Source: Cryomorphaceae bacterium
Lineage (GTDB): Bacteria; Bacteroidota; Bacteroidia; Flavobacteriales; Schleiferiaceae
Direction: 5' to 3'
Assembly: GCA_011525035.1 (NCBI GenBank)
Contig: WTIZ01000060.1
Location: 65,096-118,078 of the forward strand
DNA length: 52,983 bases
This document shows positions 7,985-52,983 of this stretch, one piece after another (position 1 is the first letter of the stretch; every line of letters starts with the position of its first letter). The position numbers and the translations under genes were made by a program. Under the pieces are notes generated by a model, which saw only the letters and a list, made by a program, of their open reading frames with translations, was not told the origin of the DNA and searched no databases.

Positions 7985-8008
7985 CTGGCTAAAATAGGGA
8001 AAACCCCT

Positions 8009-11000: not shown

Positions 11001-11107
11001 TCAATACCTGCTGCCTCGCTAACCTCTTCAAACAAGGTGGGTTCTTTGGGCGCTGATGTACAGGCACAAAGGGCAAGAAATAAGGCGATATGTGCCTTTT
11101 TCAGCAT
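8009..11107 (-). CDS. VCBS/FG-GAP repeat lipoprotein with ASPIC/UnbV-like segment (CRTAC1-like)
   Basis: A 1032-residue lipoprotein (LFLALCAC). It has many FG-GAP/VCBS repeats, recognisable by calcium-loop patterns such as DFDGNGFEDIYF, DFNSDGYLDVFV and DLDHDGTAEIF, which fold as beta-propeller blades. Around residue 515-560 a divergent ASPIC/UnbV segment appears (LGAKSHWN, GTRSWLSHSS, VEWPNG), shorter than usual. Proteins of this kind lie on the cell surface in Bacteroidota and are often encoded beside SusCD; binding of glycans or proteins is assumed, not shown. Its ATG overlaps the upstream paralogue's TAA by one base. The two paralogues are similar in order of motifs but not close copies. 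Confidence 0.88.
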   Translation of the reverse strand: MLKKAHIALFLALCACTSAPKEPTLFEEVSEAAGIDFANVLEENDQQNIVDYLYFYNGAGVAVADFDGNGFEDIYFVRNQGANALYFNQGNWKFTKGDRSAAGSADFQTGVSVVDINADGFPDLHVSAVNYHIWNGHNEFYLNQGDGTFTEISQDLGIDLAGYGQQALFFDCDNDGDQDLYVLRHSVHPSGAYNKASQRGTTDEKAGDRFFLNTGSPEAPVFEDKTEEYGVLSSQLGYGLAIVAEDFNSDGYLDVFVANDFHENDYLYLNRAGEGFELATDESFQTNSKFTMGVDAGDLNGDGLTDLFTLDMKPWDEVERKNALGAEPFHIHKYKRSQGYVEQFPKNSAHLQRGSVASKGMALPVFEDVAPLLGVESTDWSWGVLLEDFDGDGYKDLYVTNGIKRRPNDLDYIQFLSSGEGVAKSDESIYSQMPPGLVSNRAYRGTRDGMVETSKSWGLDFKGTSNGSAVADFDNDGKLDLVINNLDDRAHLYRNILATAATTVDFGGYNVRYRKRLGAKSHWNLGTRSWLSHSSTRKNVDDFGGGIIVEWPNGTAEAYTLLPGEHNALRPGEGMAVDGLETVNKSRVAAALDTLPFGHKEDAYTSFVETPLLIQGTDELGPAGAYFDGKLFVGASTGKAPLWADLQTMDTTLLWADKAHEDVDAALVTLGTGQTALVVVTGSSQMPNNSARQQDRIYFHSDKPSVSLGEEGTNASCVAVLDLNGDGNDDIFIGERSIWNDYGAAPSHAVYYGTNDGWFEKGQPSWTAELGMITDATAADLDGDGTNELIVAEDWGKIKSVDSNGKVQSLSENGWWRSVYVADLDHDGTAEIFAGGVGQNHGIALSPETPVELWITDLDGNGNRDFLYSYVNQGERYPLFGRDELIKESVKYRKDYLKNRTFSGVPFEKMFGDALADVEPLSVGFTGSALLVSSDSGWVQLALPSDAQQAPINAAIATERGLLLCGGADNMHTSIGTQESFCGTFLTYGSSGPLCSDAPFILRGSTAKLVSTPHGLVLLQNDGAALLYTGDL

Positions 11108-14100
11108 TATTCGGCGAGTTTGTATTCTTCCATAGGGCCATTAACCTTGGAGAAGAGCACATAGGTTGCATCGCCGCGCTTGTAGGAGATAATATCTCGC
11201 ACTTGTCCTTCTACGTTGAGTCCGGACGCTGCTGTACCCACTGCTTCAAAAGAGCGTGTCCCGTCTGCAAGCAGTACGGTCCCTCGCGAGGCATCATACC
11301 TTCCCCATTCGGGCTGCACTTCAAAGAGGTTTCCGCCCATAATGATATCCTTAGCACCATCTCCATTCACGTCGACCACATCGATAGCGTAAACCGGTGC
11401 GATCTGTGCTTCTAGAGGGAGCGCGCCTGGACTGAAGGTGCCGTTTCCGTTATTGAAGTAGATGACTGTCTGTAGCGTTTGTGCTTGGAGCAACGCGCTG
11501 CGCTCGAGCTGGAGGGTATCGAACACTTCAAACACACTTTTGCCTGCGTATTCCTGGTACAAGAGGTTTTCTTTCTTCAAATACGGCAGCTGTGAGATGA
11601 GGTTGTGTCGCAATACACGTGGGAACAATGTATCGCCCCAATACGAACAAAGGATAGGGTCTGTTGAGCTGTTACCATCGAAGTCATTCACGAACAATGC
11701 CATCGGTTTTTGCACAGAGGCCTCTAGGCGACAATTCTCTCCAAGGTTACCTGCTATTACATCAAGGTTCCCGTCACCGTCGACATCTGTGAGCTTCATC
11801 GTATTCCAAAGGCCTTGGCTGTAGTTGAAACCGGCTTCAATGGTTTGCTCTTTAAAGCTTGCGTTGTCGTTGATCCAAAGTCGGATGCCCGACCAATCAC
11901 CCACAGTAAGTAGGTCGGCATCACCGTCGCCGTCCACATCGCCTGCAGCACAATCTGTAATCATACCGATGCGTTGGAACCCGCGAGTAGTTCTGCGCTC
12001 GTTGCGCAGTTCCCCGTTGCCATAATTTTTCAGGTATAGACCATTAGCAGGGATGCCGTAACGGCCTTTCAATCCTCTGGACGCAACAAACACATCGGTC
12101 AAGCCGTCGCCGTCAAAATCGGCCACAGCGATAGAGGAGGAGCGTACTGGAAGGCGTGGAAGTGCGTTTTCATCATAGACGAGCTTTCCACCGCCGACGT
12201 TTTTATAGATGCGATCAAAGAGGTCGGTACTGTTGTTTTCAGCCTCCATTGAACCGCTTGCTACATACAGATCGAGATCTCCGTCTCCATCGTAATCAAA
12301 GAATTGAGCGTCGGTGTCTTCACTTGCAGCGTGTGCTTTGAAAGGGTTTCTAGTGGCTTCTTCAAAGCCGTAGTAATTGGACCCTAAAAACAGTTTACCC
12401 GCTTCGCCAGCCGCACCACATTGGTAAACGTCTGTAAAACCGTCCCCGTTAATGTCTGCGTAGGCCAATCGCGCACCTTCTGTGGTAACCATTTGTGGAA
12501 TGAGGCGCTCCTCGTTGAACTGGCTGTATTTGTTCTCTGTGCGCGAGCCATATTCTCCTGAGGCCTGTAACAAGGTACTTTTTGCCTGTGCAAGCTGTGT
12601 AGGCTGAGCATCTGCCGCCGTAAGAACGTAAAGACTATCTGCAGCCACAGCACTCAAACGAGAGGTGTTATCTCCCCAAACGATGGTTAAACTATCGAGG
12701 CTTGTATGTGCACCAATACCAAGGTGTATTCTTGGATCTACAGAGCTTTGGAACCCTTTCATCGGGACCAATTCTGCAAAGAACATCTCCCCACCAGCAT
12801 AGCCGTAAACCTTAGCGCCAATGGCAGTCGCGCCGTTTTCATTGCGTAAATCCAACGAGATGCTGTGGTTTTCTGCAAGCAGTGTTTCGGCATTGTTGCG
12901 CCAGATGAACGGCGCTTGATTCGTGTTGTTGACGATCAATTCTAGATCGCCGTCGTTGTCGAGATCTGCATACACAGATCCATTACTGTGGCTAGGTGCA
13001 TCGAGTCCCCAATCTTCGGCTTTGTTGACAAACTTGTACCCTTTCGCAACATTCTTGTAGGCATAGTTCGGAATGCGCGTAGAAGGCATGAGGTCGATAA
13101 GCTCCTTGTAGTTGACCCCTTCTTTGGTGACGATGGAACGCATCACTTCCTCGTTGGAGATGTAATTGATGTAATCCTGGTCGGTGAGGTCGTGGTTGAT
13201 TCCGTTTGAGATGTAGATGTCTCTCCAACCGTCGTTATCCAAATCGGCAATAAGTGCTCCCCAGGACCAATCAGTAGCTTCTACGCCACTTAGTTGACCA
13301 ATCTCCGAGAAATCCCCTTCTGTGGTGTTTAGGTGCAGCATATTGCGGTTGAACTGGTGATAGTATCCCCATTTCAACTTTCCTTGATAGACGTCCCAGT
13401 TTTCAAAAGTGGTGGTCTGGTTCAATCTGCGAACACCTTGCGGAAGCATATCTGTAACAAAAATATCCGGTGCCCCGTCGTTGTTGATGTCTGCCATATC
13501 CGCACCCATAGAAGCAAATGACGTATGGCGCATGTGTTTTTCGAGCTCCTCGCTAAACGTTCCGTCTTGATTGTTGATGTAGAGGTAGTCTTTCTCAAAG
13601 AAGTCGTTGGAGATGTAGATATCGTCCCATCCGTCGCCATTAACATCGCCGACGGTGGTACCTAAACCAAAACCAATCTCGCTACCCATAATTCCTGCGG
13701 CTTCGCTGACATCGGTAAAAGAACTTCCGTCATTGCGGTAGAGCTTATCCCCGCCTTCGGCATCGCGCACTTCACGCGAGCTCTTTTCAAGATTAAAACT
13801 TCCAATAGCGCGGTAGCTGTTGTTTAGTACATAGAGGTCAAGGTCGCCGTCTCTGTCGTAATCGAAGAACACACCGTGTGTGCTCAACCCTTGATCAGCA
13901 ACGCCCCACTGCTCAGCAACTTCGGTGAACGTATTATCGCCGTTATTGAGGAATAGTTCGTTAGCGCGACTATCGCCTTTGATATCTCCAGAATTTGAGA
14001 CATAGATGTCGATGAACCCGTCTTGATTAACGTCGGCCATAGCTACACCTGTGGACCAGGCTTGCTGTCCAGCAACACCGGCACTTTCGGTGATGTCCGT

Positions 14101-14388
14101 AAAGGTCATGTCCCCATTGTTGAGGTAGAGGGTATTTGAGGTTTGGTTGGCTGTAAAGTACAAATCCATCCAGCCGTCATTGTTTACATCACCTACTGCA
14201 ACACCACCGCCATTGTAAAAGTTACGGTAGTTAAATACATTGAAGTCCTTGTCGTAAGCAAGGTTGTTTTGAAAGTCAATTCCAATTTTTTTATTGTCCA
14301 ATTGTGTGAATAACGCGTCGATGGAATCGGCGGGCTGACAGGCAACAAAAAAGGCCAAAAAGGCCACGGGTAATATTCTTCGAATCAT
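11107..14388 (-). CDS. VCBS/FG-GAP repeat lipoprotein with ASPIC/UnbV domain (CRTAC1-like)
   Basis: A 1093-residue protein. The start chosen is the ATG at 14386-14388, which gives a clean lipoprotein signal (MIRRILPVAFLAFFVAC) and is preceded by the leader CTTACACACACT; an in-frame ATG five codons upstream is less likely. It has numerous D-x-N/D-x-D-G calcium loops (DVNNDGWMDLYF, DVNQDGFIDIYV, DLDNDGWRDIYI). A typical ASPIC/UnbV domain lies near residues 520-590 (IGAKVYGYAGGEMFF, then GFQSSVDPRIHLGIG). It is expected at the outer cell surface as a beta-propeller. It is the first gene after SusD, separated from it by a rho-independent terminator, so it is probably expressed less than susCD. 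Confidence 0.9.
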   Translation of the reverse strand: MIRRILPVAFLAFFVACQPADSIDALFTQLDNKKIGIDFQNNLAYDKDFNVFNYRNFYNGGGVAVGDVNNDGWMDLYFTANQTSNTLYLNNGDMTFTDITESAGVAGQQAWSTGVAMADVNQDGFIDIYVSNSGDIKGDSRANELFLNNGDNTFTEVAEQWGVADQGLSTHGVFFDYDRDGDLDLYVLNNSYRAIGSFNLEKSSREVRDAEGGDKLYRNDGSSFTDVSEAAGIMGSEIGFGLGTTVGDVNGDGWDDIYISNDFFEKDYLYINNQDGTFSEELEKHMRHTSFASMGADMADINNDGAPDIFVTDMLPQGVRRLNQTTTFENWDVYQGKLKWGYYHQFNRNMLHLNTTEGDFSEIGQLSGVEATDWSWGALIADLDNDGWRDIYISNGINHDLTDQDYINYISNEEVMRSIVTKEGVNYKELIDLMPSTRIPNYAYKNVAKGYKFVNKAEDWGLDAPSHSNGSVYADLDNDGDLELIVNNTNQAPFIWRNNAETLLAENHSISLDLRNENGATAIGAKVYGYAGGEMFFAELVPMKGFQSSVDPRIHLGIGAHTSLDSLTIVWGDNTSRLSAVAADSLYVLTAADAQPTQLAQAKSTLLQASGEYGSRTENKYSQFNEERLIPQMVTTEGARLAYADINGDGFTDVYQCGAAGEAGKLFLGSNYYGFEEATRNPFKAHAASEDTDAQFFDYDGDGDLDLYVASGSMEAENNSTDLFDRIYKNVGGGKLVYDENALPRLPVRSSSIAVADFDGDGLTDVFVASRGLKGRYGIPANGLYLKNYGNGELRNERRTTRGFQRIGMITDCAAGDVDGDGDADLLTVGDWSGIRLWINDNASFKEQTIEAGFNYSQGLWNTMKLTDVDGDGNLDVIAGNLGENCRLEASVQKPMALFVNDFDGNSSTDPILCSYWGDTLFPRVLRHNLISQLPYLKKENLLYQEYAGKSVFEVFDTLQLERSALLQAQTLQTVIYFNNGNGTFSPGALPLEAQIAPVYAIDVVDVNGDGAKDIIMGGNLFEVQPEWGRYDASRGTVLLADGTRSFEAVGTAASGLNVEGQVRDIISYKRGDATYVLFSKVNGPMEEYKLAE

Positions 14389-14423
14389 AGTGTGTGTAAG
14401 CATTGAAGCAGGAGTAGCAATAT

Positions 14424-14487: not shown

Positions 14488-15993
14488 TTATTCCGAAGGG
14501 TAACCTGGGTTTTGCTCTAAGTTCGGGTTAGCTCCCAATGCTGAGAATGGAATTGGCATCAACTTAACGTAGTCTTGACCAGTTACTTCCTTAAGTTCCC
14601 AAGCGTCAGTGAACTTGCCGTGACGAATCAAATCCATACGACGTACAGCTTCCCAAGCCAATTCGAAACCTCTTTCTTCAAGAAGATCGTCCATTGACAA
14701 AGAAGTACGAGCTGTAGCACCAGCACGTGCGCGGATATCGTTAACAATTGCCAACGCACCAGTTTCGTCACCTTCAGCTAGAAGACATTCCGCTTTCATC
14801 AAAAGAACGTCAGCGTAACGTACAACAGCAAGGTCGTTTTGAGCATCACCACCTGCAGCAGCGTTATCAATAGCCCACTTAACTACACGGATACCGTCAG
14901 TTTCAGTTGCACCAGTGATACCTGGAAGAGAAGCTGTAAAGCTCAATGGGTTACCTTGACGGTCAGTCAAAGCGTTACCAGCGTCATCGTACTGCTGACC
15001 AACCAAGAAGATATCAGAACGAGCATCGTTCGCAGTATCAAACGTGTTGTAGAAATCAGCAAGCGTACAGAATCCGTTCCATGGAGAAGATGGCAACTGG
15101 TTGTAGTGCATCGTTCTCATGTGGATAGTAAGACCCATACCACCTTCGTTCAAGTTAGGAATAACGAATACAGCCTCAGAAGAACCGTCGTTAGAAGGTG
15201 TAAAGTTGTCGTGGTAATCAGCCTCCAAAGAGTACTCACCACTGTTAATTACAGCATCACATGCAGCTTTTGCACCAGCGTAATCAGCAGTACCAGAGTA
15301 TACCTCAGCGTTCAACAACAAACGAGCCAATAGACCGTTTGCAGCGCCTTTAGTTACACGACCGTATTGATCAGCAGCGTGAGATGCTTCCAAATCTGGA
15401 ATTGCAGATTGCAATTCTGATTTGATGAAAGCAAATACCTCCGCACGTGTGTTACGAGCAGGAAGGTTTGCTGGGTCAATAGCTGCGCTCTCTAGGATTG
15501 GCACACCACCGAAGAAGTCCATCAACTGGAAGTAGTAGTATGCACGCAAAACTTTAGCTTCAGCCATGTACGTAGCTTTGTTGCTACCAGAGAACAAAGC
15601 GTCATCAGCGTCCATAAGGTCGTAGATGAACTGGTTCGTTTGAGCCAAACCTTTGTTTGCGTCATTCCATAGACCTACGATGTGACCGTTAGTTGGAGAC
15701 CAGTTGTGCATGTGAAGCTCACGCCACACACCACCATCACCCCAGTCACCACCACGGGTAGGTACGATAGTTTCATCAGAAGTAACCTGGCTTACGTTGT
15801 AGTAGCTCCACAACCAAGGGCGTAGGTTTCCGTAAGCATTTACGAGTACAGAGTAGTAATCGCCTTCGCTTGAGAAGAAGTTATCTGCGGTGATATCCTC
15901 GTAGATAGTTTCTTCTAGATCAGTACAGCTCTGGAACGTAACTGTAGATACGGCGGCGGCTGCAATCAATGCGATTTTTGAAAATCTTTTCAT
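14488..15993 (-). CDS. susD: RagB/SusD family nutrient-binding outer-membrane lipoprotein
   Basis: A 501-residue SusD-like lipoprotein: lipobox VTFQSC, then the typical opening DLEETIYEDITADNFFSSEGDYYSVLVNAYGNL, the TPR-like helical core (AEAKVLRAYYYFQLMDFFGGVPIL) and the C-terminal section VRYADVLLMKAECLLAEG, ERGFELAWEAVRRMDLIRHGKF. It forms the surface lid of a SusCD complex and binds glycan for import. It follows susC by 19 bases. By eye, codon use in susC and susD seems more uniform than in neighbouring genes, as in highly expressed genes. The substrate cannot be read from sequence; the downstream trehalase and transporter suggest an alpha-glucoside. Confidence 0.95.
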   Translation of the reverse strand: MKRFSKIALIAAAAVSTVTFQSCTDLEETIYEDITADNFFSSEGDYYSVLVNAYGNLRPWLWSYYNVSQVTSDETIVPTRGGDWGDGGVWRELHMHNWSPTNGHIVGLWNDANKGLAQTNQFIYDLMDADDALFSGSNKATYMAEAKVLRAYYYFQLMDFFGGVPILESAAIDPANLPARNTRAEVFAFIKSELQSAIPDLEASHAADQYGRVTKGAANGLLARLLLNAEVYSGTADYAGAKAACDAVINSGEYSLEADYHDNFTPSNDGSSEAVFVIPNLNEGGMGLTIHMRTMHYNQLPSSPWNGFCTLADFYNTFDTANDARSDIFLVGQQYDDAGNALTDRQGNPLSFTASLPGITGATETDGIRVVKWAIDNAAAGGDAQNDLAVVRYADVLLMKAECLLAEGDETGALAIVNDIRARAGATARTSLSMDDLLEERGFELAWEAVRRMDLIRHGKFTDAWELKEVTGQDYVKLMPIPFSALGANPNLEQNPGYPSE

Positions 15994-16012: not shown

Positions 16013-18796
16013 TTATTTCAAGTTGAATTTCACGTTCAACGCAATAGTGCGAGCACGTGGGTAGTTCGTGTAGTCAACACCCAATGAAGGAGCACCGTTA
16101 GCAGAAGCTGAAGTGTTCACTTCTGGATCGTATCCAGTGTAGTTTGTCAACAACAACAAGTTTTGACCACTCAAACCAACAACAGCTGAGTTCAACCATT
16201 GTGAACCTTCAACATCAACGTTGTAAGAAATGTTCAAGTTATCAAGACGCAAGAACGAAGCATCTTCAATCCACTGAGAAGAGTACGTTGGCGTAGACGT
16301 CAACATATCGTCAGAGAAGTCAAGTGCAGGAGCCAACAAGTTAATGTTGGTGTTCAAGTTATCAAGTGTAGTGTACTCCATTGCTGTGTTGTTGAACACA
16401 GAACCACCTTGCTGTCCACGGAAGAATACGCTAGCGTTGAATTTACCGAAGCTAAACGTGTTCAAGAAACCGTAAGTAAAGTCTGGCTGAGCCAAACCGA
16501 TAACCTCAGCTTCGTCACTGTACGTGTTAGAAGAAGCGTCGTATACGAGACCGTAGAAAGTACCGTAAGCTTCACCAACAACAAGTTTCTGAGCGAATGC
16601 TCCTGATTGACCAGCACCAGAGATAGGAGCTGTCAAGATTTCAGAGTTTGTACCCAAATCTTCAACTACTAGTCTTGAACGAGACAAGTTGAAACCGATA
16701 TCCCAACCGAAGTCAGAAGAGCTCACTAGAGCGTAGTTCAACATCAAATCAAAACCAGTGTTTGAAGTAGCACCTACGTTAGCCAACAATGTTGGAGCAA
16801 CAGAAGGAGCTGGTGCAGGAACAGTCAATAGAAGATCTGAAGTGTTTTTCTGGAACAAGTCCAAAGAACCGTAGAACTTACCACCGTTCATTTCCCAATC
16901 CAAACCGATGTTCGTAGAAGCTGTAGACTCCCAACGTAGACCTGGGTTAGCAGGGTTCAAGTAACCAGTACCTGAAGTAGTAGAACCACCGATAACAGCG
17001 TTAGAACCTGTACCGATACGAGCAATACTTTGGTATTCACCAATTGCTTCGTTACCTACAACACCCCAACCAGCACGCAATTTCAAATCAGAGAATGCTT
17101 CTGGAACGAAGTCAAACTCAGATAGACGCAATGCAGCTGCGAAAGAAGGGAAGATACCCCACTTGTTATCAGAACCGAACTTAGAAGAACCGTCACGACG
17201 AACAGTACCTGTCAACATCAACTTTCCACCGATGTCGTAGTTAGCACGAGTGTAGAAAGAAACTAGACGAGACTGACCACGGTAAGAGTACTTGTCACCC
17301 AATTGTGCACGACCACCACCGTCAAGGTTGTTATAGCTGTAGTTATCTGTAACGAATTCGTATGCAGTAGCACCGAAACCTTCGTAGTTGTTTTCTTGCC
17401 AAGAGTAACCTGCCATGAAGTTCAACATGTTACCAGCAACTTCAGCATCGTAGTTCAAGTAAGTTTCCAATACTTGAGAAGAAACTTGACCGTACTTCTG
17501 AGAAGCAACACCATTATCAGCAACACCGTAAGGAGTAGCTTTTGGTAGGTAAGTTTTACGAAGTGTATTATATGTATCGTAACCAGTGTTAGCAGTAGCG
17601 CTAAGACCTTCCAATACATCGCCTAGATCTAGACGAGCAGTACCGTTCATTGTGATACCAGTTGTACGAGCAACATCGTCAATTTCCAATGCAGCTTGAA
17701 CTGGGTTACGAACAGAGTTAGAAACGAATGTGTAGTTTCCGTCAGCGTCGTAAACAGGAAGTGTAGGGTTCATCTTCATCACGTTAGTGAAAAGACCACC
17801 TTCGAAACCACCAGTTTGCTGGTAAGGAGTAAGGTTATCGTCTTGCTGAGAAACGTTGATGTTTCCAGAAAGAGTCAATTTACCGTCCAATGTTTTTTGG
17901 TTCATCGACAAACGGCTAGTGAAACGCTCAGTACCTGAGTTGATCACAATACCGTCTTGGTCTAAGTAACCAAGTGACAAGCGGTAGTTACCTTCCGCAG
18001 AACCGCCAGACAAAGACAAGTTGTGTTGTTGTGCAACACCTGTCTGGAATACCTCATCTTGCCAATCTGTATCCGCGTTGCCTAGAGTGTTACCTAGACC
18101 GAAACGGTTTACAGCTGCACGGTATTCGTCAGCAGTCAAAAGATCCAACTTCTTAGCAAGCGTAGATGCACTTACTTGGTAGTTGTAATCAACAGCCATA
18201 GCGCTACCGCCTTTACCTTTCTTCGTTGTAATAAGTACAACACCGTTCGCACCACGTGCACCGTAGATAGCAGTCGCAGAAGCGTCTTTCAATACAGTGA
18301 TCGACTCAATGTCGTTCGGGTTCAAACGAGAAAGCGGGTTACGCTGAGAACCACCAGTTTGACCAGTACCGCCAGGTAGCGTGTTCGCTGACTGGACAGG
18401 CATACCGTCAATAACGTAAAGCGGCTCGTTACTAGATGAGATCGAAGTACCACCACGAACACGTACACTTACACCACCACCCGGCTCACCGTTGGTTGGA
18501 GTAATTGTGATACCCGCAGCTTTACCTTGGATCAACAATTCTGGTGATGTTACAACACCACCGTTGAAGTCTTCGGCACTTACCTGAGCAGAAGAACCCG
18601 TAAGGTCTTTCTTCTTCTGAGTACCGTAACCAATGACAACAACTTCTTCAAGTTGCTCAAACAACATGTCTGCTTGAGACATTGCATCGTCACCACCTTC
18701 GCCTTCACTCTGTGCATAAGCTACCTGAGATCCAAGTAGAAGCATCGAGCACCAAAGCGTCGTAGATGACAATACACGACGTAGATTTTGATTCAT
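16013..18796 (-). CDS. susC: SusC/RagA TonB-linked outer-membrane receptor lacking the N-terminal carboxypeptidase-like domain
   Basis: A 927-residue TonB-dependent receptor. A signal peptide (to QVAYAQ) is followed by a short acidic stretch (SEGEGGDDAMSQADMLF) and then directly by the plug, beginning EEVVVIGYGTQKKKDLTGS and including SVRVRGGTSISSSNEPLYVIDG and ATAIYGARGANGVVLITTKKG. The barrel fills the rest and ends YPRARTIALNVKFNLK. Most SusC proteins carry a carboxypeptidase-regulatory-like domain of about 80 residues before the plug; here it is absent, unlike the second SusC at 52126. It imports oligosaccharides together with the adjacent SusD. Two palindromic operator candidates lie upstream. 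Confidence 0.95.
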   Translation of the reverse strand: MNQNLRRVLSSTTLWCSMLLLGSQVAYAQSEGEGGDDAMSQADMLFEQLEEVVVIGYGTQKKKDLTGSSAQVSAEDFNGGVVTSPELLIQGKAAGITITPTNGEPGGGVSVRVRGGTSISSSNEPLYVIDGMPVQSANTLPGGTGQTGGSQRNPLSRLNPNDIESITVLKDASATAIYGARGANGVVLITTKKGKGGSAMAVDYNYQVSASTLAKKLDLLTADEYRAAVNRFGLGNTLGNADTDWQDEVFQTGVAQQHNLSLSGGSAEGNYRLSLGYLDQDGIVINSGTERFTSRLSMNQKTLDGKLTLSGNINVSQQDDNLTPYQQTGGFEGGLFTNVMKMNPTLPVYDADGNYTFVSNSVRNPVQAALEIDDVARTTGITMNGTARLDLGDVLEGLSATANTGYDTYNTLRKTYLPKATPYGVADNGVASQKYGQVSSQVLETYLNYDAEVAGNMLNFMAGYSWQENNYEGFGATAYEFVTDNYSYNNLDGGGRAQLGDKYSYRGQSRLVSFYTRANYDIGGKLMLTGTVRRDGSSKFGSDNKWGIFPSFAAALRLSEFDFVPEAFSDLKLRAGWGVVGNEAIGEYQSIARIGTGSNAVIGGSTTSGTGYLNPANPGLRWESTASTNIGLDWEMNGGKFYGSLDLFQKNTSDLLLTVPAPAPSVAPTLLANVGATSNTGFDLMLNYALVSSSDFGWDIGFNLSRSRLVVEDLGTNSEILTAPISGAGQSGAFAQKLVVGEAYGTFYGLVYDASSNTYSDEAEVIGLAQPDFTYGFLNTFSFGKFNASVFFRGQQGGSVFNNTAMEYTTLDNLNTNINLLAPALDFSDDMLTSTPTYSSQWIEDASFLRLDNLNISYNVDVEGSQWLNSAVVGLSGQNLLLLTNYTGYDPEVNTSASANGAPSLGVDYTNYPRARTIALNVKFNLK

Positions 18797-18845: not shown

Positions 18846-18864
18846 TAGTGTACATAATACACTT
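18846..18864. promoter_or_regulatory. Operator candidate A upstream of susC
   Basis: TAGTGT-N7-ACACTT, an inverted repeat with perfect inner arms AGTGTA/TACACT around CATAA. It lies 16 bases upstream of the candidate -7 box of susC. It matches the palindrome next to the Nudix-type regulator (51221-51239) at 11 of 12 arm positions, so it is a probable binding site of that regulator. Confidence 0.6.
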
Positions 18865-19078: not shown

Positions 19079-19101
19079 AAAAGTGTGAAATGGACACTTT
19101 T
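19079..19101. promoter_or_regulatory. Operator candidate D, distal to susC
   Basis: Perfect inverted repeat AAAAGTGT-N7-ACACTTTT (8-bp arms, spacer GAAATGG). Its core AAGTGT-N7-ACACTT has the same arms and spacing as the palindrome beside the Nudix-type regulator. It lies about 285 bases before the susC start and 235 bases from operator A, a spacing that could allow looping between two bound dimers. Confidence 0.5.
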
Positions 19102-41598: not shown

Positions 41599-42945
41599 TT
41601 ACTCGTTCCCCGCCAAAGTTTTGGTGTAGATTTTCGCTCCGTGTATATCAATAACCAATTCTCCTGCGTCCTCACCCCCAACAACTTCACCGCCACCGAA
41701 GGCGAAATAGCCGTTGACTTGATCCTCGCCGAGGGTTCTAGAGATCATTACAGTGTTCGCTGTAGTATCTGTGCTCAGGGTCATTTCACCACCGTAAGCG
41801 CCGTTCCACAAAGCAGGATGGTTGTGCTTTAATTCAAAAAGGGAGGCGTAAAATTCTGCATGGTCGGTATTCGCGGACCAATTCACACCCACCGTATCCT
41901 TGCTAAAGAATGGGAATCTGAAATCGATCCCAGCTTCTTGCCCGGTGTACAACAACGGGAAACTTTGGTCCATCATGAATGCAAGTGCAAAGAAGGCGCG
42001 CGCATCATCGCCCATGCGCTCAATAGCGCTACCCTGCCAGCTGTTTTCATCGTGGTTGGAGGTGAAGTACAATTTCATTGCATCGTCGCCATATACGGTA
42101 TCGTTTTTAGCAGCATAGACCTCAAGATCATAAACGCTCTTGTGGCCCTTGGCGATGTCGTTCATCATGTGGTGCAACTCCCACCCGTAATCTGCATTGA
42201 AAGTGCTGAGCAAATGCGGCTCGCTCCATTCAGCAAGGAAGAAAAGGGGTCCGTGCTTCTCGCGCAACATTGGTATGGTGTGCTCCCAGAAGGCATATGG
42301 CACCATTCCGGCCATATCACAGCGGAATCCGTCGATGCCTGTGTTGCTCACCCACCAATCCATTTCTGCAGCCATAGAGTCGATCAAAAGCGGGGCGTCA
42401 TAATTCAAATCGGCCACGTCGGTCCATCCCGTTTTGCCGCCGTCGTTTCCGATGGCTTCCATAGGATAGCTGCCGTCCTCATCGCGCGTGTAAAAATCGT
42501 CGTTCGTTTCTACCCATGGGTGGTCCCAGGCACTGTGGTTGGCGACCCAATCGAGCAATACATGCATGCCCAATGCGTGTGCCTCGTCCACGATGGCTTT
42601 AAAATCTTCAACGGTTCCAAAAGCTGGGTTGACCGCGGTGTAATCTTGGATGGAATAATAGCTGCCGAGCTCGCCTTTGCGGTTGCGCTCACCAATAGGT
42701 TGGATGGGCATGAACCAAAGGATGTCTACGTTCATCTCGGCCAGGCGAGGGAGGTGCTCCTTAAAGGCATTCAAGGTTCCTTCTGGCGTGTATTGACGGA
42801 TGTTGACCTCATAAATATTAGCGTCTTTCGCCCATTCTGGAAGCTTTGCGTCTTCCCAGGTTGAGGTAGTTTCTGGTGCCGATTCCGGCGTGTTGCAAGC
42901 AGCCAATGTCAGTACTGCGCTTAAGGCTATTAAGGTTCTTTTCAT
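41599..42945 (-). CDS. GH13 alpha-amylase family lipoprotein
   Basis: A 448-residue lipoprotein (VLTLAAC). The ATG at 42943-42945 with the leader AATTCACACAAC is chosen over an earlier in-frame ATG. GH13 motifs: LLDWVANHSAWDHPW (region I), DGFRCDMAG with the nucleophile Asp (region II), FLAEWSEPHL with the acid/base Glu (region III) and FTSNHDENSW with the transition-state stabilising Asp (region IV). It should hydrolyse alpha-1,4-glucans at the cell surface or in the periplasm. It is 32 bases after the second GH13 gene and belongs to the maltodextrin operon. Confidence 0.93.
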   Translation of the reverse strand: MKRTLIALSAVLTLAACNTPESAPETTSTWEDAKLPEWAKDANIYEVNIRQYTPEGTLNAFKEHLPRLAEMNVDILWFMPIQPIGERNRKGELGSYYSIQDYTAVNPAFGTVEDFKAIVDEAHALGMHVLLDWVANHSAWDHPWVETNDDFYTRDEDGSYPMEAIGNDGGKTGWTDVADLNYDAPLLIDSMAAEMDWWVSNTGIDGFRCDMAGMVPYAFWEHTIPMLREKHGPLFFLAEWSEPHLLSTFNADYGWELHHMMNDIAKGHKSVYDLEVYAAKNDTVYGDDAMKLYFTSNHDENSWQGSAIERMGDDARAFFALAFMMDQSFPLLYTGQEAGIDFRFPFFSKDTVGVNWSANTDHAEFYASLFELKHNHPALWNGAYGGEMTLSTDTTANTVMISRTLGEDQVNGYFAFGGGEVVGGEDAGELVIDIHGAKIYTKTLAGNE

Positions 42946-42977
42946 GTTGTGTGAATTATTCTTGGTTGAATTGGCCA

Positions 42978-45236
42978 CTATTTCGGGCGTGATACATTTT
43001 GTCTAAAGGAGAGACTCTGCGTGATGCCGTCTGCAGGAACTGTGATGTCCCATTCTTCAAGGTAGCGGTCTTCATTGCTGTTGTTAAAGAAGAATCGTAC
43101 CTCCTGTTCCATGTACTTGCGCACAATGATGAGCAGGTGCGGCTCTGGTTGATGTACCGTGGTAGAACCGTAATTCAAGGCCATGAATTGGCTTCGAGTT
43201 TCATTCAATTGCGCAATGCGATCAAAGAGCTCCTGCTGGCGAGGTGAAAAGTCGAACGGCATCATCTTTCTGTTGTCCGGGTCGTTCCCCCCGTGAAGGG
43301 CAATCTCGTCCCCGTAGTAGAGGATAGGAATGCCTGGAACTGCGATATTGAAGGCGTGCATGGCGGCCATTTTTCTATACCCACGCTCTGTAGGTTCTGG
43401 AATTTCGCGTGTCCAACCGGCTAGCTTGCTGTCTTCACTCATGCTGAGGTGTCCAGAGGCCATAGAAGAGAAGCGCGGCTTGTCCTGATTACCGGAAATA
43501 TTACCCATCAAATGGTGGTGGCCGTAATAGGTCAGGCTGCTCTCCAAAGCCTTGCGCAATCGGTCGAATGTGGCCCCTTCTTGCGTGAACGCTTCGAATG
43601 CGGCATCGTATAGGTTGAAGTTGAATTGGGCATCGACTTTACCGCTACCGACGTAGCTGGCAATGAGCTCATCCGAGCCGTAGGTTTCCCCAATCTGATA
43701 CACATGGTCATCGCTTGCAGCACGAATTTTCTCTGTGAGCAAACGCGTAAAATTCATCGGGATGTGCTTGGTTGCATCGTGACGGAAGCCGTCGAAATCA
43801 TATTCTGTGATCCACACCAGGGCGCTATCGCTCATGAGTTCTGCGACGGTATCGTTACGAAGTTCGAGGGTCGGCATGAAGGTGTCGAACCAAGTCGTCA
43901 AGCGTTCCTCGTCCCAAAGTTGGGTATTGAGTCGTCCGTCTGCCGTGTATTTGTTGGTGGCCCAATTTGGATGTTTCTGGTACACCGGATGTAATTCATG
44001 GACGTGGTTAGCCACATAGTCTAGAAGTACATTTTGCTCCTTTGCATGCGCATCGTCGAGGAACAAATGCAGCTCTTCAGGAGAAGCGAAACGGTGGTCC
44101 GGTTTGATATTGCTCACAGGCCAATATCCGTGGTATCCAGAGAACGTACTTACGGGTCCTCCTTGGTTCCACAGGCCCCAAGCATTTTCTGGGTTTTGTG
44201 TGATTGGGCTGATCCAAAGCGTGTTGGTATGGAGCGCATCAAAATATCCATCGGCCAATTTCTGGCGCAATCCCTCGACATCTCCTCCTTGATAGTTGGC
44301 ACGAGGGTGCACGGCCGAGTCTTGAACGGGCTGATCGTTTCCAGGGTTGCCGTTGAAGAATCGGTCCACCATCGCGAAATACATGATGGAAGTGTGCCAA
44401 TCTTTACGGTCCAATTCCTCTGTATTACGAACCACCTCGCCAAACTTCAAAGGGATCAACCAATCCCCTCCTTGCTGGCCGTTTCTCGCGGTATACAATC
44501 TGATCCATGCGCGTTCCCATTCCTCGGCATCTGCAGGAATCGCAATGCTTAGTCCGTCCTCATCGCGTACAACGTCAATCACGCGGTTGTTGAAGAATGC
44601 TAAAACTTCTTGGTCTTCCGGGATGCTCGAAAATCGGAGGGCGCCTTCGTGCACGTATTGGAAATCAATGGCTACAGGGGCTTCACCGCCGCCGCCTTCC
44701 ACGGTCAAAACATTGTTGAAGCTTCCAAATCCATTGGGCACGGTTACTTCATTCGAAGGGTCCAATACTTCTTCGCCGTTCACGACGAGTTTGTAGGCAT
44801 ATTCACCGGGCGCAAGTACTAGCGGTGCTTCCCAGGCGTCGCCGGTCCATTTCAAGAAAGTGGCATCGCTGTTCCAAGCGTTAAATACACCTTTGACCTT
44901 CACCTCTTCTCCTTCGAAACCAGGAATGCTCAAGGTGATGGCGCGCTTGGCGCCTCTAAAGAAAGGCACGTCGAGATTCTCATGATCTCCATCGATATGC
45001 GCGAAGTTCAGCTCATGCTCTAGAGTACCCGTGATCACTTCTCCGTCGAAGTCTAGACCACTTGGTAATTCGAGCTGTCCATTTGCATAATCATTTACCA
45101 CAAATGCACTTTGGGTACCGTGATGAACGTGCGGCGAAGCCAGATCAGAGGCCTGCATGCGAAGGGGTGCTGAGGGCTGAACGTCACAGGCAGCGAGCGC
45201 TGCACTGATGGAGAGTATCGTTAAAAATTTCTTCAT
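42978..45236 (-). CDS. GH13 enzyme with N-terminal CBM48-like domain, cyclomaltodextrinase/neopullulanase-like
   Basis: A 752-residue lipoprotein (AALAAC). A starch-binding-like domain (EVKVKGVFNAWNSDATFLKWTGDAWEAPLVLAPGEYAYKLVVNG) lies at about 110-180. The catalytic barrel has LLDYVANHVHELHP (region I), DGFRHDATKH with the nucleophile (region II), YQIGETYGS with the acid/base Glu (region III) and SGNQDKPRFSS (region IV). In region IV the usual His before the Asp is Gln. It probably opens cyclodextrins or hydrolyses maltooligosaccharides or pullulan. It is preceded by a terminator hairpin, so expression may be lower than that of the GH65 gene. Confidence 0.93.
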   Translation of the reverse strand: MKKFLTILSISAALAACDVQPSAPLRMQASDLASPHVHHGTQSAFVVNDYANGQLELPSGLDFDGEVITGTLEHELNFAHIDGDHENLDVPFFRGAKRAITLSIPGFEGEEVKVKGVFNAWNSDATFLKWTGDAWEAPLVLAPGEYAYKLVVNGEEVLDPSNEVTVPNGFGSFNNVLTVEGGGGEAPVAIDFQYVHEGALRFSSIPEDQEVLAFFNNRVIDVVRDEDGLSIAIPADAEEWERAWIRLYTARNGQQGGDWLIPLKFGEVVRNTEELDRKDWHTSIMYFAMVDRFFNGNPGNDQPVQDSAVHPRANYQGGDVEGLRQKLADGYFDALHTNTLWISPITQNPENAWGLWNQGGPVSTFSGYHGYWPVSNIKPDHRFASPEELHLFLDDAHAKEQNVLLDYVANHVHELHPVYQKHPNWATNKYTADGRLNTQLWDEERLTTWFDTFMPTLELRNDTVAELMSDSALVWITEYDFDGFRHDATKHIPMNFTRLLTEKIRAASDDHVYQIGETYGSDELIASYVGSGKVDAQFNFNLYDAAFEAFTQEGATFDRLRKALESSLTYYGHHHLMGNISGNQDKPRFSSMASGHLSMSEDSKLAGWTREIPEPTERGYRKMAAMHAFNIAVPGIPILYYGDEIALHGGNDPDNRKMMPFDFSPRQQELFDRIAQLNETRSQFMALNYGSTTVHQPEPHLLIIVRKYMEQEVRFFFNNSNEDRYLEEWDITVPADGITQSLSFRQNVSRPK

Positions 45237-45292: not shown

Positions 45293-47620
45293 TTAAGCAT
45301 GTGCTGCTGCTGCAGTGGATGCATTTTCTCCTGCGGCTACTTCAAACCACTGGCCGTCGATGGCGAATTTGGCTGGAGCGCCACTCACATTTTCGATGGT
45401 CATGCCTTCTGCGGTGAGGTTGGCTTTGAGCGTTGCGCCTCTCCAAAGGATGGAGAAGGTGAGGCCCTTCCACTGTGCCGGTAGCTTTGGTGTGAAGTGC
45501 AACTCCTCGTCGCGAATCTTCATGCCGCCGAACCCTTGTACCACAGACATCCATGTTCCTGCCATCGAGGTGATGTGCAACCCTTCGTGAACCTCGCGGT
45601 TGTAATCGTCGATGTCCAAACGAGAGGTGCGCAAATACATTTCGTAGGCTTTCTCTGGGTAATCAATCTGTGCTGCTAGGATGGCGTGCACACAAGGGCT
45701 CAAAGAGCTCTCATGAACGGTCTTCGGCTCATAGAAATCGAAATTGCGCTTTACTTCTTCTTCCTCGTAGAGGTGGTTCAAGAAGTAGTAGCCCTGCAAT
45801 ACGTCGGCTTGCTTGATGAAGATCGAACGCAAGATGCGGTCCCAGCTCCAGTGCTGGTTGATCGGGCGCTCGTCCAGGCTGAGGTCATCGGCAGTGAGCT
45901 GCTCCTTGTCTAAGAAGCCGTCCTGCTGCAATACCACGCCTAATTTCTCGCTCTTCGGGTAGTACATCTTGGCGATGATATCATTCCACTTGGCGAATTC
46001 TGTATCTGCGTTCAAAGCAGTCTTGCTGGTGATAGCGCTCAGCGCGTCCGCAGCATTTTCTTTCAGCCAATGGTGGGCTTCCAACGTCCACTCCAACGTC
46101 CACGCCGCCATGCGGTTGGTGTACCAGTTGTTGTTGATGTTGTTTTCGTACTCGTTCGGTCCAGTTACACCGAGCATTACGTAGGCTTCTTTTTCCTGTG
46201 ACCAATTCACACGCTGCGACCAGAATCGGCTAATACCTAGAAGGACCTCAAATCCCCCTTCGGCTAGATAGCCCCAATCCTGTGTGTGACGTATGTAATC
46301 GAATACGCCATAAGCGATGGCTGCATTGCGGTGGATTTCCTCGAAAGTGATCTCCCACTCGTTGTGACATTCTTCGCCGTTCATCGTCACCATCGGGTAC
46401 AATGCTGCGCCGTCGGTAAACCCGAGCTTGCCTGCATTTTCAATGGCCTTATCCAGCTGCTTGTAACGGTACAAACACAAGTTCTTCGCCACCTCCGGCT
46501 GCGCCGTTGCGAGGTAGAAAGGCAAACAGTATGCTTCGGTATCCCAGTAGGTAGAACCGCCGTATTTCTCACCGGTAAACCCTTTAGGACCGATGTTCAA
46601 TCTATCGTCCACACCCGTGAAGGTCTGGTTCATGTGGAAGATGTTGAAACGGATGCCCTGCTGTGCTTCCGCGTCGCCGTCAATCTCAATATCAGAGGTA
46701 ATCCATTTGTTGTGCCAAGCGGCTACGTGCTCACCACGCAATGCCTCATAGCCTTGGGCTGCTGCCGCCGTAGCGCTCGCCGCTGCCTTAGCGTCCAAGC
46801 TTGCCACGTCGTGGTTCATGCTGGATAAAACCGCTGCAAATTTTTCAAGTTTCAAGGTTTGACCCTGAGCGACTTCATAGCAGGCGCACTCGCTGACGAA
46901 CATGTGCTTTGCATCTGAACTCATGCCCCAATCTTGCGGCGCTCCGTCTAATGATATACTGTTGCGCATGGCCACAGTTACCTCGAAACCGGTCTTCTTG
47001 GTCTTGGCGTGTACATAGCTTGCGCCCGCTTCTTGACCTTGAGTTACAGGCTCCCAAAACTTCTCGTCGTAGTTGCTATCCTCGTTTTCTACATCAAAAT
47101 CTAGGTACGAGCACAATTCAATCTTGCCTGAGAAATTCTTTGGAGTAACGCTGTAGGAAATGGTTCCAATCTCGTCTTGAACGATGCTTACCAAACGTTC
47201 GGCTTCAACAGCTACAATCTTCCCTGAAGGAAGGGTTGCTTCGAAAGAGCGCTTGAGCAATCCGCTTTGCATGTCGAGCTCGCGGTAGAACGACGCTACT
47301 TCAGTAGCGGTATTAAGGTCCAATTCCTCTCCGTCGACCTTCACCTGAATGCCGATCCAATTACAAGAGTTCAATACCTTGGCGAAGTACTCCGGGTACC
47401 CATTTTTCCACCAACCAACTCTTGTCTTATCAGGGTAATACACCCCGGCGATGTAGGAGCCTTGTAGACTCTCACCGGTATAGGTTTCTTCGAAATTGGC
47501 ACGTTGACCCATGCGGCCGTTACCAATAGAAAACAAACTCTCGCTCTTCGGGTGGTTTTCAGAATCCCAACCGCGCTCGATGATCTTCCAAGGGTCTACC
47601 TCAGTATATTTATTGAACAT
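45293..47620 (-). CDS. GH65 glycoside phosphorylase, probable maltose phosphorylase
   Basis: A 775-residue cytoplasmic enzyme of the GH65 family: SLFSIGNGRMGQRANFEE near residue 30, the barrel segments GGSTYWDTEAYCLPFYLA, FEEIHRNAAIAYGVFDY, and the catalytic acid region LGVTGPNEYENNINNNWYTN, then HQWSWDR-like NQHWSWDRILRS and the phosphate-binding region near HESSLSPCVHAIL. It splits maltose (or a related disaccharide such as trehalose or kojibiose) with phosphate into glucose and beta-glucose 1-phosphate. It is followed by pgmB, as is usual for this enzyme, and by a sugar kinase. The leader CTTACACACATCAT precedes the ATG. Confidence 0.93.
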   Translation of the reverse strand: MFNKYTEVDPWKIIERGWDSENHPKSESLFSIGNGRMGQRANFEETYTGESLQGSYIAGVYYPDKTRVGWWKNGYPEYFAKVLNSCNWIGIQVKVDGEELDLNTATEVASFYRELDMQSGLLKRSFEATLPSGKIVAVEAERLVSIVQDEIGTISYSVTPKNFSGKIELCSYLDFDVENEDSNYDEKFWEPVTQGQEAGASYVHAKTKKTGFEVTVAMRNSISLDGAPQDWGMSSDAKHMFVSECACYEVAQGQTLKLEKFAAVLSSMNHDVASLDAKAAASATAAAAQGYEALRGEHVAAWHNKWITSDIEIDGDAEAQQGIRFNIFHMNQTFTGVDDRLNIGPKGFTGEKYGGSTYWDTEAYCLPFYLATAQPEVAKNLCLYRYKQLDKAIENAGKLGFTDGAALYPMVTMNGEECHNEWEITFEEIHRNAAIAYGVFDYIRHTQDWGYLAEGGFEVLLGISRFWSQRVNWSQEKEAYVMLGVTGPNEYENNINNNWYTNRMAAWTLEWTLEAHHWLKENAADALSAITSKTALNADTEFAKWNDIIAKMYYPKSEKLGVVLQQDGFLDKEQLTADDLSLDERPINQHWSWDRILRSIFIKQADVLQGYYFLNHLYEEEEVKRNFDFYEPKTVHESSLSPCVHAILAAQIDYPEKAYEMYLRTSRLDIDDYNREVHEGLHITSMAGTWMSVVQGFGGMKIRDEELHFTPKLPAQWKGLTFSILWRGATLKANLTAEGMTIENVSGAPAKFAIDGQWFEVAAGENASTAAAAHA

Positions 47621-47638: not shown

Positions 47639-48283
47639 TTAAAAGTGAGCTACCAAAGCTTCAGGAGTTGTATCGCCCAATGCGGTGAAGTGGATATCTG
47701 CCTGCAAGGTCTCCGCATCGCCGATACCTACGCTTGACATGCCACCTGTCTTTGCCGCTTGGACCCCAGCGATGGAGTCTTCAAACACGACACATTCTGA
47801 CGGTTCTAGTCCTAGAGCTTCTGCTCCTTTCAAAAATACCTCTGGATGAGGTTTGCCGTTTACCACATTATTCCCATCAATTATCGCAGTGAACAATGGA
47901 GTGATGCCCAATTTTTCCAAAATCATGGGTGCATTCTTCGAAGCACTACCCAACGCGATTTTGATGCCCTGGTCGTAGGCAGTTTGCAAGAAATTAAGTG
48001 CTCCTGGCAGTGCGTCCTGCGGGCCTAAGCCCTGGACCAATTCTAAGTACCACTCGTTTTTCTCTACCATCAATGTCTGGAACTCTTCGTCGCTAACTGT
48101 AGCGCCGGTCCATTCGATGATTTTCTTGAGCGAATCTACTCGGCTCACGCCTTTGAGCTGCTCGTTTTGTTCTTCAGTAAAGTCGCCGCCCAGTTTTTGA
48201 GCGAGTTGACGCCATGCTTGAAAATGAAAAACGGCGGTATCTACAATAACGCCGTCTAGATCAAAAAGGAATCCTTTAATCAT
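47639..48283 (-). CDS. pgmB: Beta-phosphoglucomutase
   Basis: A 214-residue HAD-superfamily protein: nucleophile motif FDLDGVIVDTAVFHFQAW, substrate cap segment KGVSRVDSLKKI, GSASKNAP (motif II), NGKPHPEVFLKGAEALG and FEDSIAGVQAAKTGGMS (motif IV). It turns beta-glucose 1-phosphate into glucose 6-phosphate, via a bisphosphate intermediate. It lies 18 bases before the GH65 phosphorylase gene, and together they feed disaccharides into glycolysis in the cytoplasm. Confidence 0.95.
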   Translation of the reverse strand: MIKGFLFDLDGVIVDTAVFHFQAWRQLAQKLGGDFTEEQNEQLKGVSRVDSLKKIIEWTGATVSDEEFQTLMVEKNEWYLELVQGLGPQDALPGALNFLQTAYDQGIKIALGSASKNAPMILEKLGITPLFTAIIDGNNVVNGKPHPEVFLKGAEALGLEPSECVVFEDSIAGVQAAKTGGMSSVGIGDAETLQADIHFTALGDTTPEALVAHF

Positions 48284-48292
48284 GTGATCGGT

Positions 48293-49165
48293 TTAAACTT
48301 TATAGGCATCGAGCACTTTCAAGTACTCAAGGTGATACTTAATGAGTCCGTCCACAGGCTTGCGCATGATTTGTCCAAGACGCATTCCACGCTCTTCCAA
48401 CACCTCTTCAAGAATCTCGTGGAAGATAGCGCCAACACTACCTACAAAGTGCACAGGCACCTCTTTGCAGTTGTCGAAACACGCGATGTGGATATCTGCG
48501 AATTTTGCGAACCCTTCACGTACAATTTGCTTCACATATGGGTTTTCCATGTGCTTTCCAGCAAATCGGCTGAAAGATGCGAGGTACACGTTTGCATTAG
48601 GCTTGTTGTACACGCTGGTGATGATTTCGTCTTTGTCCAATTGGTACGTGTTGAAGAAATCTTCAGCCATCTCCGCAGGGAGCTTTTTGTATAAGAAATC
48701 GGACACCAAACGCTTGCCTATGAAGCTCGCTGAACCTTCATCGCCAAGAATGTATGCCAAGGCAGGCACTTCTTCGCTTACTTCGGCCCCATCAAAGAAA
48801 CAGCTGTTTGATCCTGTGCCGATAATACAGGTGATCGCAGGTTCTCCTGTATAGGTCGAGTAGGCACTTGCTACGAGGTCGTGATCGACATTTACGTGTG
48901 CATTTGGCAGTACTTGTTGCAAACCGTCTTTAACGATATCCTTCAAGCTTTCTGACGATGCACCCGCACCATAGAAATAAACGAATTCTACTTGGGTATG
49001 GATGGTCTTAACCACCTCGTTCTCACTCAACTCCTCGTGAATAAAAGAAGCTGAATGAAAATAAGGATTGAACCCCATTGTAGAGAAGCGCTTGTGTTCA
49101 GTGCCGTCTGAGTTTAGAACTACCCAGTCGCATTTCGTAGAACCACTTTCTGCAATTAATATCAT
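48293..49165 (-). CDS. BadF/BcrA-type ATPase family sugar kinase, probable glucokinase or GlcNAc kinase
   Basis: A 290-residue actin-fold ATPase: phosphate-1 motif MILIAESGSTKCDWVV, middle DHDLVASAYSTYTGEPAITCIIGTGSNSCFFDG (phosphate-2 region), LGDEGSASFIGKRLV and FVGSVGAIFHEIL near the C-terminus. This is the N-acetylglucosamine-kinase-like branch of the BadF/BcrA family, common in Bacteroidota. In this operon, next to maltose phosphorylase and pgmB, phosphorylation of the released glucose is the likely role; GlcNAc is the alternative. It follows gapA past a strong hairpin. Confidence 0.83.
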   Translation of the reverse strand: MILIAESGSTKCDWVVLNSDGTEHKRFSTMGFNPYFHSASFIHEELSENEVVKTIHTQVEFVYFYGAGASSESLKDIVKDGLQQVLPNAHVNVDHDLVASAYSTYTGEPAITCIIGTGSNSCFFDGAEVSEEVPALAYILGDEGSASFIGKRLVSDFLYKKLPAEMAEDFFNTYQLDKDEIITSVYNKPNANVYLASFSRFAGKHMENPYVKQIVREGFAKFADIHIACFDNCKEVPVHFVGSVGAIFHEILEEVLEERGMRLGQIMRKPVDGLIKYHLEYLKVLDAYKV

Positions 49166-49216: not shown

Positions 49217-51201
<1,985 letters not shown>

Positions 51202-51206
51202 GGTCG

Positions 51207-51219: not shown

Positions 51220-51240
51220 TAAGTGTAAATAATACACTTA
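51220..51240. promoter_or_regulatory. Operator candidate B between pfkA and the Nudix regulator
   Basis: Perfect palindrome TAAGTGTA-N5-TACACTTA (8-bp arms, spacer AATAA). It lies immediately upstream of the pfkA -7 box, in the divergent region with the Nudix-type regulator gene, whose ATG is 60 bases away. It is the best match of a motif that occurs at four places in the window, and it is placed for self-regulation and for control of the pfkA operon. Confidence 0.75.
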
Positions 51241-52078: not shown

Positions 52079-52099
52079 TAAGTGTATTCTTTACATTTG
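52079..52099. promoter_or_regulatory. Operator candidate C overlapping the second susC promoter
   Basis: TAAGTGTA-N5-TACATTTG. The left arm is identical to operator B; the right arm has diverged to become also a -7 box (TACATTTG, 52092-52099, exact TAnnTTTG). Core form is AAGTGT-N7-ACATTT, one mismatch in 12 arm bases. A bound regulator would cover the promoter, so repression is the simplest reading. The predicted start near 52106 gives a 20-base leader ending CTTAACACCAAAAC. Confidence 0.6.
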
Positions 52100-52125: not shown

Positions 52126-52983
52126 ATGAAGCGATTCTCACGTTTTCTCGTGGCTCTTTCACTCTTAATAGGCGGTGCAGTTCATGCCCAGTCTGTTTCG
52201 GGGACGGTGGTAGATGAGTTCAATGAACCTTTGCCGTCTGTAGCCATTTCAGTTGATAAAGGTGGAGCAACCTCTACCAATTTCAACGGTCAATATTCCC
52301 TTTCATTAAAGCCAGGGAAGTATGCCATTACTTATTCATTCATTGGTTACGAACCGGTGGTGAAGGAAGTAGAAATTAAAGGCAAGCAAATCATCAATGT
52401 AACCATGAAGCCTGCAAGCAACCAGCTCGACGAGGTTGTCGTTGTAGGTTACGGTGTGGCTCGTAAGCGCGATCTTACCGGATCTGTAGTCTCGCTGAAG
52501 ACCAAAGAGCTTACCGACATTCCAACACCTTCTTTTGAAAATGCCATTCAAGGAAAGGCTGCTGGGGTTCAGGTAATTACTGGTTCGGGTATTGCGGGTT
52601 CAGGTTCTATGGTACGTGTACGTGGTGTAGCCTCTATTTCAGCAGGTGGTGATCCGCTATACGTAGTAGATGGTATTCCAATTACACAAGATTATTTCTT
52701 GAACGGTAACCGTGGTGGTTTTAACACCAACCCATTGGCAACGATTAACCCGAACGATATCGAATCTGTAGAGATCTTGAAGGATGCTGCTGCAACAGGT
52801 ATCTACGGTTCTCGTGGTTCTAACGGGGTTGTATTGATTACCACTAAAAGAGGGAAGAGCAAGAAGTTGGCGTACAACTTCTCATCTCGCGTTGGTTTCT
52901 CGAACCCAACGGCATTGCCGAATATGATGAACAAGGACGAGTACCTTCAGATGTACGAAGAGGCTTGGGTAAACGACGGCAAT
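52126..52983 (+). CDS. susC: SusC/RagA TonB-linked receptor, 3' partial
   Basis: 286 codons are visible and the frame runs off the window. Signal peptide to AVHAQ, then a carboxypeptidase-regulatory-like domain (SVSGTVVDEFNEPLPSVAISVD, FNGQYSLSLKPGKYAITYSFIGYEPV) at about residues 23-100, then the plug domain (LDEVVVVGYGVARKRDLTGS, VRVRGVASISAGGDPLYVVDG, ATGIYGSRGSNGVVLITTKRG). It is therefore the full-length type, unlike the SusC at 16013. It is the first gene of a glycan-utilisation cluster next to a Nudix regulator and the maltodextrin operon, so alpha-glucans are the likely cargo; SusD would be expected just downstream. Confidence 0.95.
   Translation, partial: MKRFSRFLVALSLLIGGAVHAQSVSGTVVDEFNEPLPSVAISVDKGGATSTNFNGQYSLSLKPGKYAITYSFIGYEPVVKEVEIKGKQIINVTMKPASNQLDEVVVVGYGVARKRDLTGSVVSLKTKELTDIPTPSFENAIQGKAAGVQVITGSGIAGSGSMVRVRGVASISAGGDPLYVVDGIPITQDYFLNGNRGGFNTNPLATINPNDIESVEILKDAAATGIYGSRGSNGVVLITTKRGKSKKLAYNFSSRVGFSNPTALPNMMNKDEYLQMYEEAWVNDGN

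Follow-up and report, generated by a model that had tools for sequence, protein, structure and literature searches.

AraR-type operators predicted to couple glycolysis and glucan-uptake genes under a Nudix-fold regulator in a Cryomorphaceae bacterium

AraR of Bacteroides thetaiotaomicron (BtAraR, BT0354; structures 5bs6, 5dd4, 5ddg and 5deq) is the NrtR-family repressor that responds to L-arabinose in Bacteroides (PMC4666351). BtAraR binds a BT0365 gel-shift probe containing AAGTGTAAAAAAGACACTT, exactly the core AAGTGT-N7-ACACTT; the AraR–DNA structure ascribes recognition of the GTGT half site to K179, R180, N181 and K184 in the major groove and to K204 and R205 in the minor groove (PMC4666351). 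The palindrome described below is this same published operator; the earlier note had pointed out that the NrtR/AraR class binds palindromes and controls sugar genes in Bacteroides. BtAraR controls susC/susD and sugar catabolic genes from one or two tandem sites, an arrangement that we also propose here. XylR (BT0791) of Bacteroides and the xylose-linked NrtR proteins of Flavobacteriales belong to the same family. NrtR of Shewanella and Synechocystis, an ADP-ribose-responsive regulator of NAD metabolism, has the same fold and binds palindromes as a dimer. HexR, CceR, Cra and CcpA couple glycolysis genes to sugar uptake, but their folds (RpiR, LacI) are unrelated and the analogy is one of role only. 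In the sea, Flavobacteriales rank among the main consumers of glucans from algae. Our search of the open literature turned up no regulator of central glycolysis for this order, nor any sugar-responsive NrtR besides AraR and XylR, the latter a weak absence given the little subscription coverage.

We analysed a stretch of 52,983 nucleotides, hereafter the window, from a Cryomorphaceae bacterium. It carries four copies of the AraR-type palindrome and the gene of an NrtR/AraR-type protein, P0001. The palindromes are likely (probability of about 0.8) the operators of a sugar-responsive P0001, which would repress glycolysis and glucan loci and be released by a glucose-type ligand. The features concerned are listed in Table 1.

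Table 1. Predicted operators and associated genes of the window.
Feature	Position	Strand	Remarks
Trehalase	3494-4921	-	End of susC1 unit
Remainder of probable susC1 operon	3494..14403	-	Same strand, short gaps
susD1	14488..15993	-	SusD_RagB 4e-28
susC1, TonB-dependent receptor	16013..18796	-	
Operator 3	18846..18864	none	49 bp ahead of susC1 start; adjoins TTG (-33-like) element
Operator 4, perfect	19081..19099	none	284 bp ahead of susC1
GH13 alpha-amylase-type enzyme, lipoprotein	41599..42978	-	
GH13 enzyme with AMPK1_CBM	42978..45236	-	
GH65 phosphorylase, maltose/trehalose type	45293..47620	-	PF03632 4e-133; NF010380
pgmB, beta-phosphoglucomutase	47639..48283	-	TIGR01990 above cut-off
BadF/BcrA-type ATPase, probable sugar (gluco)kinase	48293..49165	-	PF01869 E 7e-6, below cut-off
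gapA, glyceraldehyde-3-phosphate dehydrogenase	49217..50203	-	
pfkA, ATP 6-phosphofructokinase	50218..51202	-	First in divergent operon; TIGR02482 above cut-off
Operator 1, perfect	51221..51239	none	Between pfkA and regulator gene
NrtR/AraR-type regulator P0001	51300..52004	+	Nudix-like N-domain and winged HTH
Operator 2, one mismatch (AAGTGT-N7-ACATTT)	52080..52098	none	Overlaps susC2 -7 box
susC2 Bacteroidetes-type -7 box TACATTTG	52092..52099	+	Perfect match to the pattern TAnnTTTG
susC2, TonB-dependent receptor	52126..52983	+	Extends past window end; Plug, CarbopepD_reg_2

Scanned with AAGTGT-N7-ACACTT, the window yields two perfect matches (operators 1 and 4) and two with one mismatch (operators 2 and 3), exactly where the earlier note had placed them and with the same number of mismatches; the 8-bp arms that it had read at operator 1 are also present (TAAGTGTA at 51220-51227 and TACACTTA at 51233-51240). 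These four are the only sites with at most one mismatch; 100 dinucleotide shuffles averaged 0.10 and never exceeded 1. Both perfect copies of the 2.0-Mb genome lie inside the window. In genome-wide pattern searches, the slightly relaxed WAGTGT-N7-ACACTW occurs six times and its reversed control not once, while a pattern with up to two mismatches (97 matches, 69 for the control) is too loose for use. The operator consensus is wAGTGTA-N5-TACACTw. Of further one-mismatch copies in the genome, those at C2:44219 and C23:208426 were set aside as they fall inside coding ORFs, and another, at C18:1420, lies inside an ORF or near gene starts.

That AT-rich palindromes simply arose by chance near promoters would fit the count at two mismatches, where five sites against 2.33 expected make a weak signal; the excess at one mismatch (4 versus 0.10) and, decisively, conservation across species and families refute this origin, leaving it a negligible probability.

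The relatives compared are Schleiferiaceae/Cryomorphaceae of the Flavobacteriales, mostly metagenome-assembled genomes; the locus search with P0001 alone reached the genus only, and loci of other families were added separately. Each of the 30 orthologous loci retrieved first has operator 1, with two mismatches or fewer. Within the genus (24 loci), identity is 0.99 in the half sites, 0.79 in the spacer and 0.69-0.72 in the flanks; in the six loci of other genera the corresponding values are 0.96, 0.56 and 0.39-0.47, with some built-in bias in both sets as the sites were chosen as best matches. In five other families (f2, f4, f7, f10 and f13), a site with no or one mismatch precedes pfkA in 9/9 loci where the regulator is near that gene. 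The motif is thus conserved together with the regulator, as the earlier note had asked of relatives. It had also called for a genome-wide search, which gave 253 WAGTGT-N7-ACACTW sites (reversed control: 45) in 77 family genomes possessing the regulator, and no enrichment (3 sites, control 11) in 11 family genomes of four genera without a good homologue; the genomes of this comparison are not independent of one another, and its p-value is not to be read at face value. In genus g17 the regulator gene still adjoins pfkA, but the sites there are all degenerate.

All four sites occupy promoter regions, as had been proposed: operator 1 at -18 from the pfkA ATG (51202) and -60 from the regulator gene, operators 3 and 4 at -49 and -284 from susC1, and operator 2 over the -7 box of susC2. 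The pfkA start used here replaces an earlier gene end at 51237, which belongs to a GTG-initiated ORF. The deviating half site of operator 2, ACATTT, also fits the TAnnTTTG pattern and is kept in the eight closest relatives; at two mismatches the site is undetectable in about half of the genus, where it is degenerate, and susC2 genes of other genera have full-strength sites. Operator 3 lies at -48 to -50 in 7/7 orthologous susC1 promoters, operator 4 in 4/7, those of the closest relatives only. The two are about 235 bp apart, and operator 4 is possibly a loop partner of operator 3. The susC1 gene itself is present in eight of the 25 genomes of the genus.

Alternatively, the palindromes could act as RNA hairpins of an attenuator or terminator: they can fold, with -6 to -10 kcal/mol and z of about -1.9 to -3.2. 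Their positions upstream of or across promoter boxes (-284, -49, over -7), however, place several of them outside the transcript. They lack a downstream T-run, the best fold at 52080 ignores the palindrome, and half sites and spacing stay conserved although the promoter positions differ. We rejected this highly improbable reading and keep that of protein-binding operators.

Downstream of operator 1, the operon pfkA-gapA-BadF kinase-pgmB-GH65-GH13-GH13 stays with the regulator, and usually with a susC, in many genera. Its BadF/BcrA-type ATPase probably acts as a glucokinase. Between susD1 and the end of the susC1 unit are encoded two FG-GAP proteins (the first with ASPIC/UnbV), a 172-aa ORF, a PAP2 protein, an MFS transporter and the trehalase; from strand and spacing, we infer a single operon spanning 3494-18796.

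The identification of P0001 as a Nudix-type regulator, made in the earlier note, holds at the level of profile, sequence and model. Pfam assigns NrtR_WHD (1.4e-24) and NUDIX (7e-5), both above cut-offs, and the closest solved structure is BtAraR (5bs6; E 1.7e-33, 37% identity). The AlphaFold2 model (pLDDT 85.6) superposes on arabinose-bound AraR (5deq) with Z 22.3 and an rmsd of 2.7 over 200 residues, and on NrtR–DNA with Z 18.9, the range over NrtR/AraR chains being 18.9-22.3. Read by eye in the translation, GDLIHRGEGLDESADRVLWELASLKNV has none of the glutamates of REUXEEXGU, and the Nudix domain is probably impaired and no active hydrolase. The DNA-binding face, on the other hand, is that of AraR: the contacts D178, K179, R180, N181, R183 and K184 are all identical and kept across the P0001 clade, in a recognition helix (DKRNFRK) that is the same in both proteins. 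The AraR wing residues K204/R205 correspond to H219/K220. Nudix fold, winged HTH, operator and base-contacting residues are therefore common to P0001 and BtAraR, and since BtAraR shifts the same core in gels, the family, the dimeric binding mode and the operator are all precedented. P0001 would bind the predicted operators, judging by these identities. In the tree its clade is distinct and order-wide (support 98/95); AraR falls outside it and has a long branch.

Could P0001 instead be an NrtR of the classical kind, which responds to ADP-ribose and governs NAD metabolism, the sugar genes nearby being incidental? Both Pfam domains would suit it, and NCBIfam gives a weak NtrR match; yet this match scores 87.6 bits against an equivalog cut-off of 400, the nearest solved structure is AraR, and no nad gene was identified beside the motif sites whose loci were retrieved. 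The NrtR proteins of Shewanella and Synechocystis, 26% identical to P0001, differ in recognition helix, sites and targets. We regard such a role as very improbable.

If P0001 were a genuine AraR or XylR, with L-arabinose or D-xylose as its ligand, this would account for the operator and for the DNA-contact residues shared with AraR; moreover, xylose-linked relatives (about 41% identical in family f5), among them L290, L291, L293 and L294, carry an insert in the loop where P0001 also has one, and a perfect motif stands upstream of one of them. These relatives differ nonetheless in adjoining FGGY kinase and xylose-isomerase-like genes, in their helix (DIKNHK) and in forming a separate clade. Neither arabinose isomerase (AraA_N, matched in control genomes) nor xylose isomerase (TIGR02630) is found in any of 25 genomes of the genus, and the P0001 gene clusters neither with araMPRDAB, as is usual for AraR, nor with xylose isomerase and xylulokinase genes, as is usual for XylR. 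Contrary to AraR, the P0001 clade has an altered arabinose pocket: R86, F129 and H131 remain unchanged, but E/Q takes the place of R34, and further replacements affect F36 (by D or a variable residue), G48 (by D) and F49 (by L); about 15 residues are inserted after R86. A pentose response is thus quite improbable, the predicted targets being genes for glycolysis and for the use of trehalose and alpha-glucans.

The insert common to the xylose-linked relatives suggests that the P0001 clade came from a pentose-sensing ancestor. Starch and maltodextrin, trehalose and laminarin all yield glucose. With such substrates, and with upper and lower glycolysis as the core target, glucose or a derivative is favoured as the inducer; the lack of araA and xylA in the genus and the altered pocket point the same way. 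On this genomic context and these substitutions, we put the inducer being glucose or a derivative at roughly even odds; glucose itself, rather than maltose or a phosphosugar, would be the ligand. In other families, the neighbours of the clade's genes are pfkA, gapA, ROK glucokinase and glucose-6-phosphate dehydrogenase. At four loci (L287, L288 and L289 of family f14, L286 of f10), the clade gene lies by glucose-6-phosphate dehydrogenase-like genes instead of pfkA, an identity confirmed by Pfam for L286 only; this suggests that the clade controls the oxidative pentose phosphate pathway there.

The proposed regulon is wider than the four sites first described, as further sites occur on other contigs. 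A fifth target is a susC/susD/GH16 locus of laminarin type on contig C30, with GAGTGT-N7-ACACTT 22 bp ahead of the ATG, a site kept in 21/23 congener loci that reach the promoter while its spacer and flanks vary. Other genera have exact sites, most of them no more than about 60 bp from the gene start, directly before genes for GH13, GH31, GH57, glycogen phosphorylase and CBM48/20 proteins; an MFS transporter gene is preceded by such a site as well. The idea that the sites join distant glycan receptors to glycolysis genes is supported by the enrichment of the motif in genomes with the regulator, by its conservation and by its identity with the AraR operator; P0001 would control the pfkA operon, susC1, susC2 and the laminarin-type susC together.

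The genome encodes two further NrtR-type proteins. One, on contig C13 (L171 2942-3679), lies, by eye, beside a large GH3 beta-glucosidase-like ORF; its recognition helix differs (DRSRQK), which excludes it as a likely binder. The other, at C23:219044, keeps DKRNFRK, so that not every copy of the motif need belong to P0001. The motif might then be common to several paralogs, with some sites (susC1, for example) bound by the C23 protein and the four sites not forming one regulon. In other genera the motif likewise precedes relatives of this paralog, and paralogs in G002, G016, G031, G032, G058 and G060 have it directly before their own genes. In this genome, however, no good palindrome precedes the C23 gene; G023, in which just a single NrtR match was detected, nonetheless carries four sites (pfkA, susC2 and further genes); and the targets have glucose-yielding substrates in common. 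We consider such a division of the sites unlikely, though with a real share of the probability, and retain P0001 as the candidate regulator of all of them.

Under the P0001 reading, the protein would bind as a dimer whose two winged helices enter consecutive major grooves, Lys194, Arg195, Asn196 and Lys199 reading each GTGT half site as in AraR. The analogy with AraR and the overlap of sites with -7 and -33 elements argue for repression as the sign of regulation, and P0001 probably acts as a repressor. Without inducer it would sit on or beside promoters, repressing its own gene, the divergent operon from pfkA to the second GH13 gene, the adjacent susC2 of starch/maltodextrin type, the susC1 operon that ends with the MFS transporter and trehalase genes and whose two sites could loop, and, on another contig, the laminarin-type locus. 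Whichever of these glucans it comes from, glucose or a close derivative would bind the Nudix-fold pocket; the DNA-binding domains of the ligand-bound protein would rotate and release the operators.

More tentatively, and at somewhat less than even odds, the order-wide Flavobacteriales clade may be a Nudix-fold sensor of glucose or a derivative, a former pentose sensor that kept the AraR operator and became a dedicated regulator of pfkA-gapA and glucan uptake, in the role of HexR, Cra or CcpA. The NrtR/AraR family and its operator are known; a glucose/glycolysis clade appears undescribed in the literature searched. If true, one Nudix-fold sensor linking pfkA-gapA to the uptake of starch, trehalose and laminarin would explain how small genomes coordinate polysaccharide use, and would show new sugar specificities evolving within a family whose operator stays fixed. 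Such a fixed operator predicts possible cross-talk between the paralogs that share it.

Some conserved copies precede genes without a clear sugar role. The site TAGTGTTATTTGKACACTT lies between a RidA-like gene and secA (L004 1501-1519, C13:23867-23885; also L099, L100, L102, L108, L110 and L152), with a -7 box TATATTTG toward secA in several loci, and recurs little changed in most or all of 12 congeners scanned; a link of secA to the P0001 regulator would be unexpected. In many congeners, another site lies near the start of a gene for a secreted IgGFc-binding/CHU_C protein of type IX secretion (L011 1501-1519, C61:13872-13890; also L130, L134, L135, L145, L147 and L149). Finally, a perfect site precedes an MFS transporter gene beside a Gfo/Idh/MocA oxidoreductase gene in L138, L140 and L146 (genomes G069, G074 and G080), possibly the target of another paralog.
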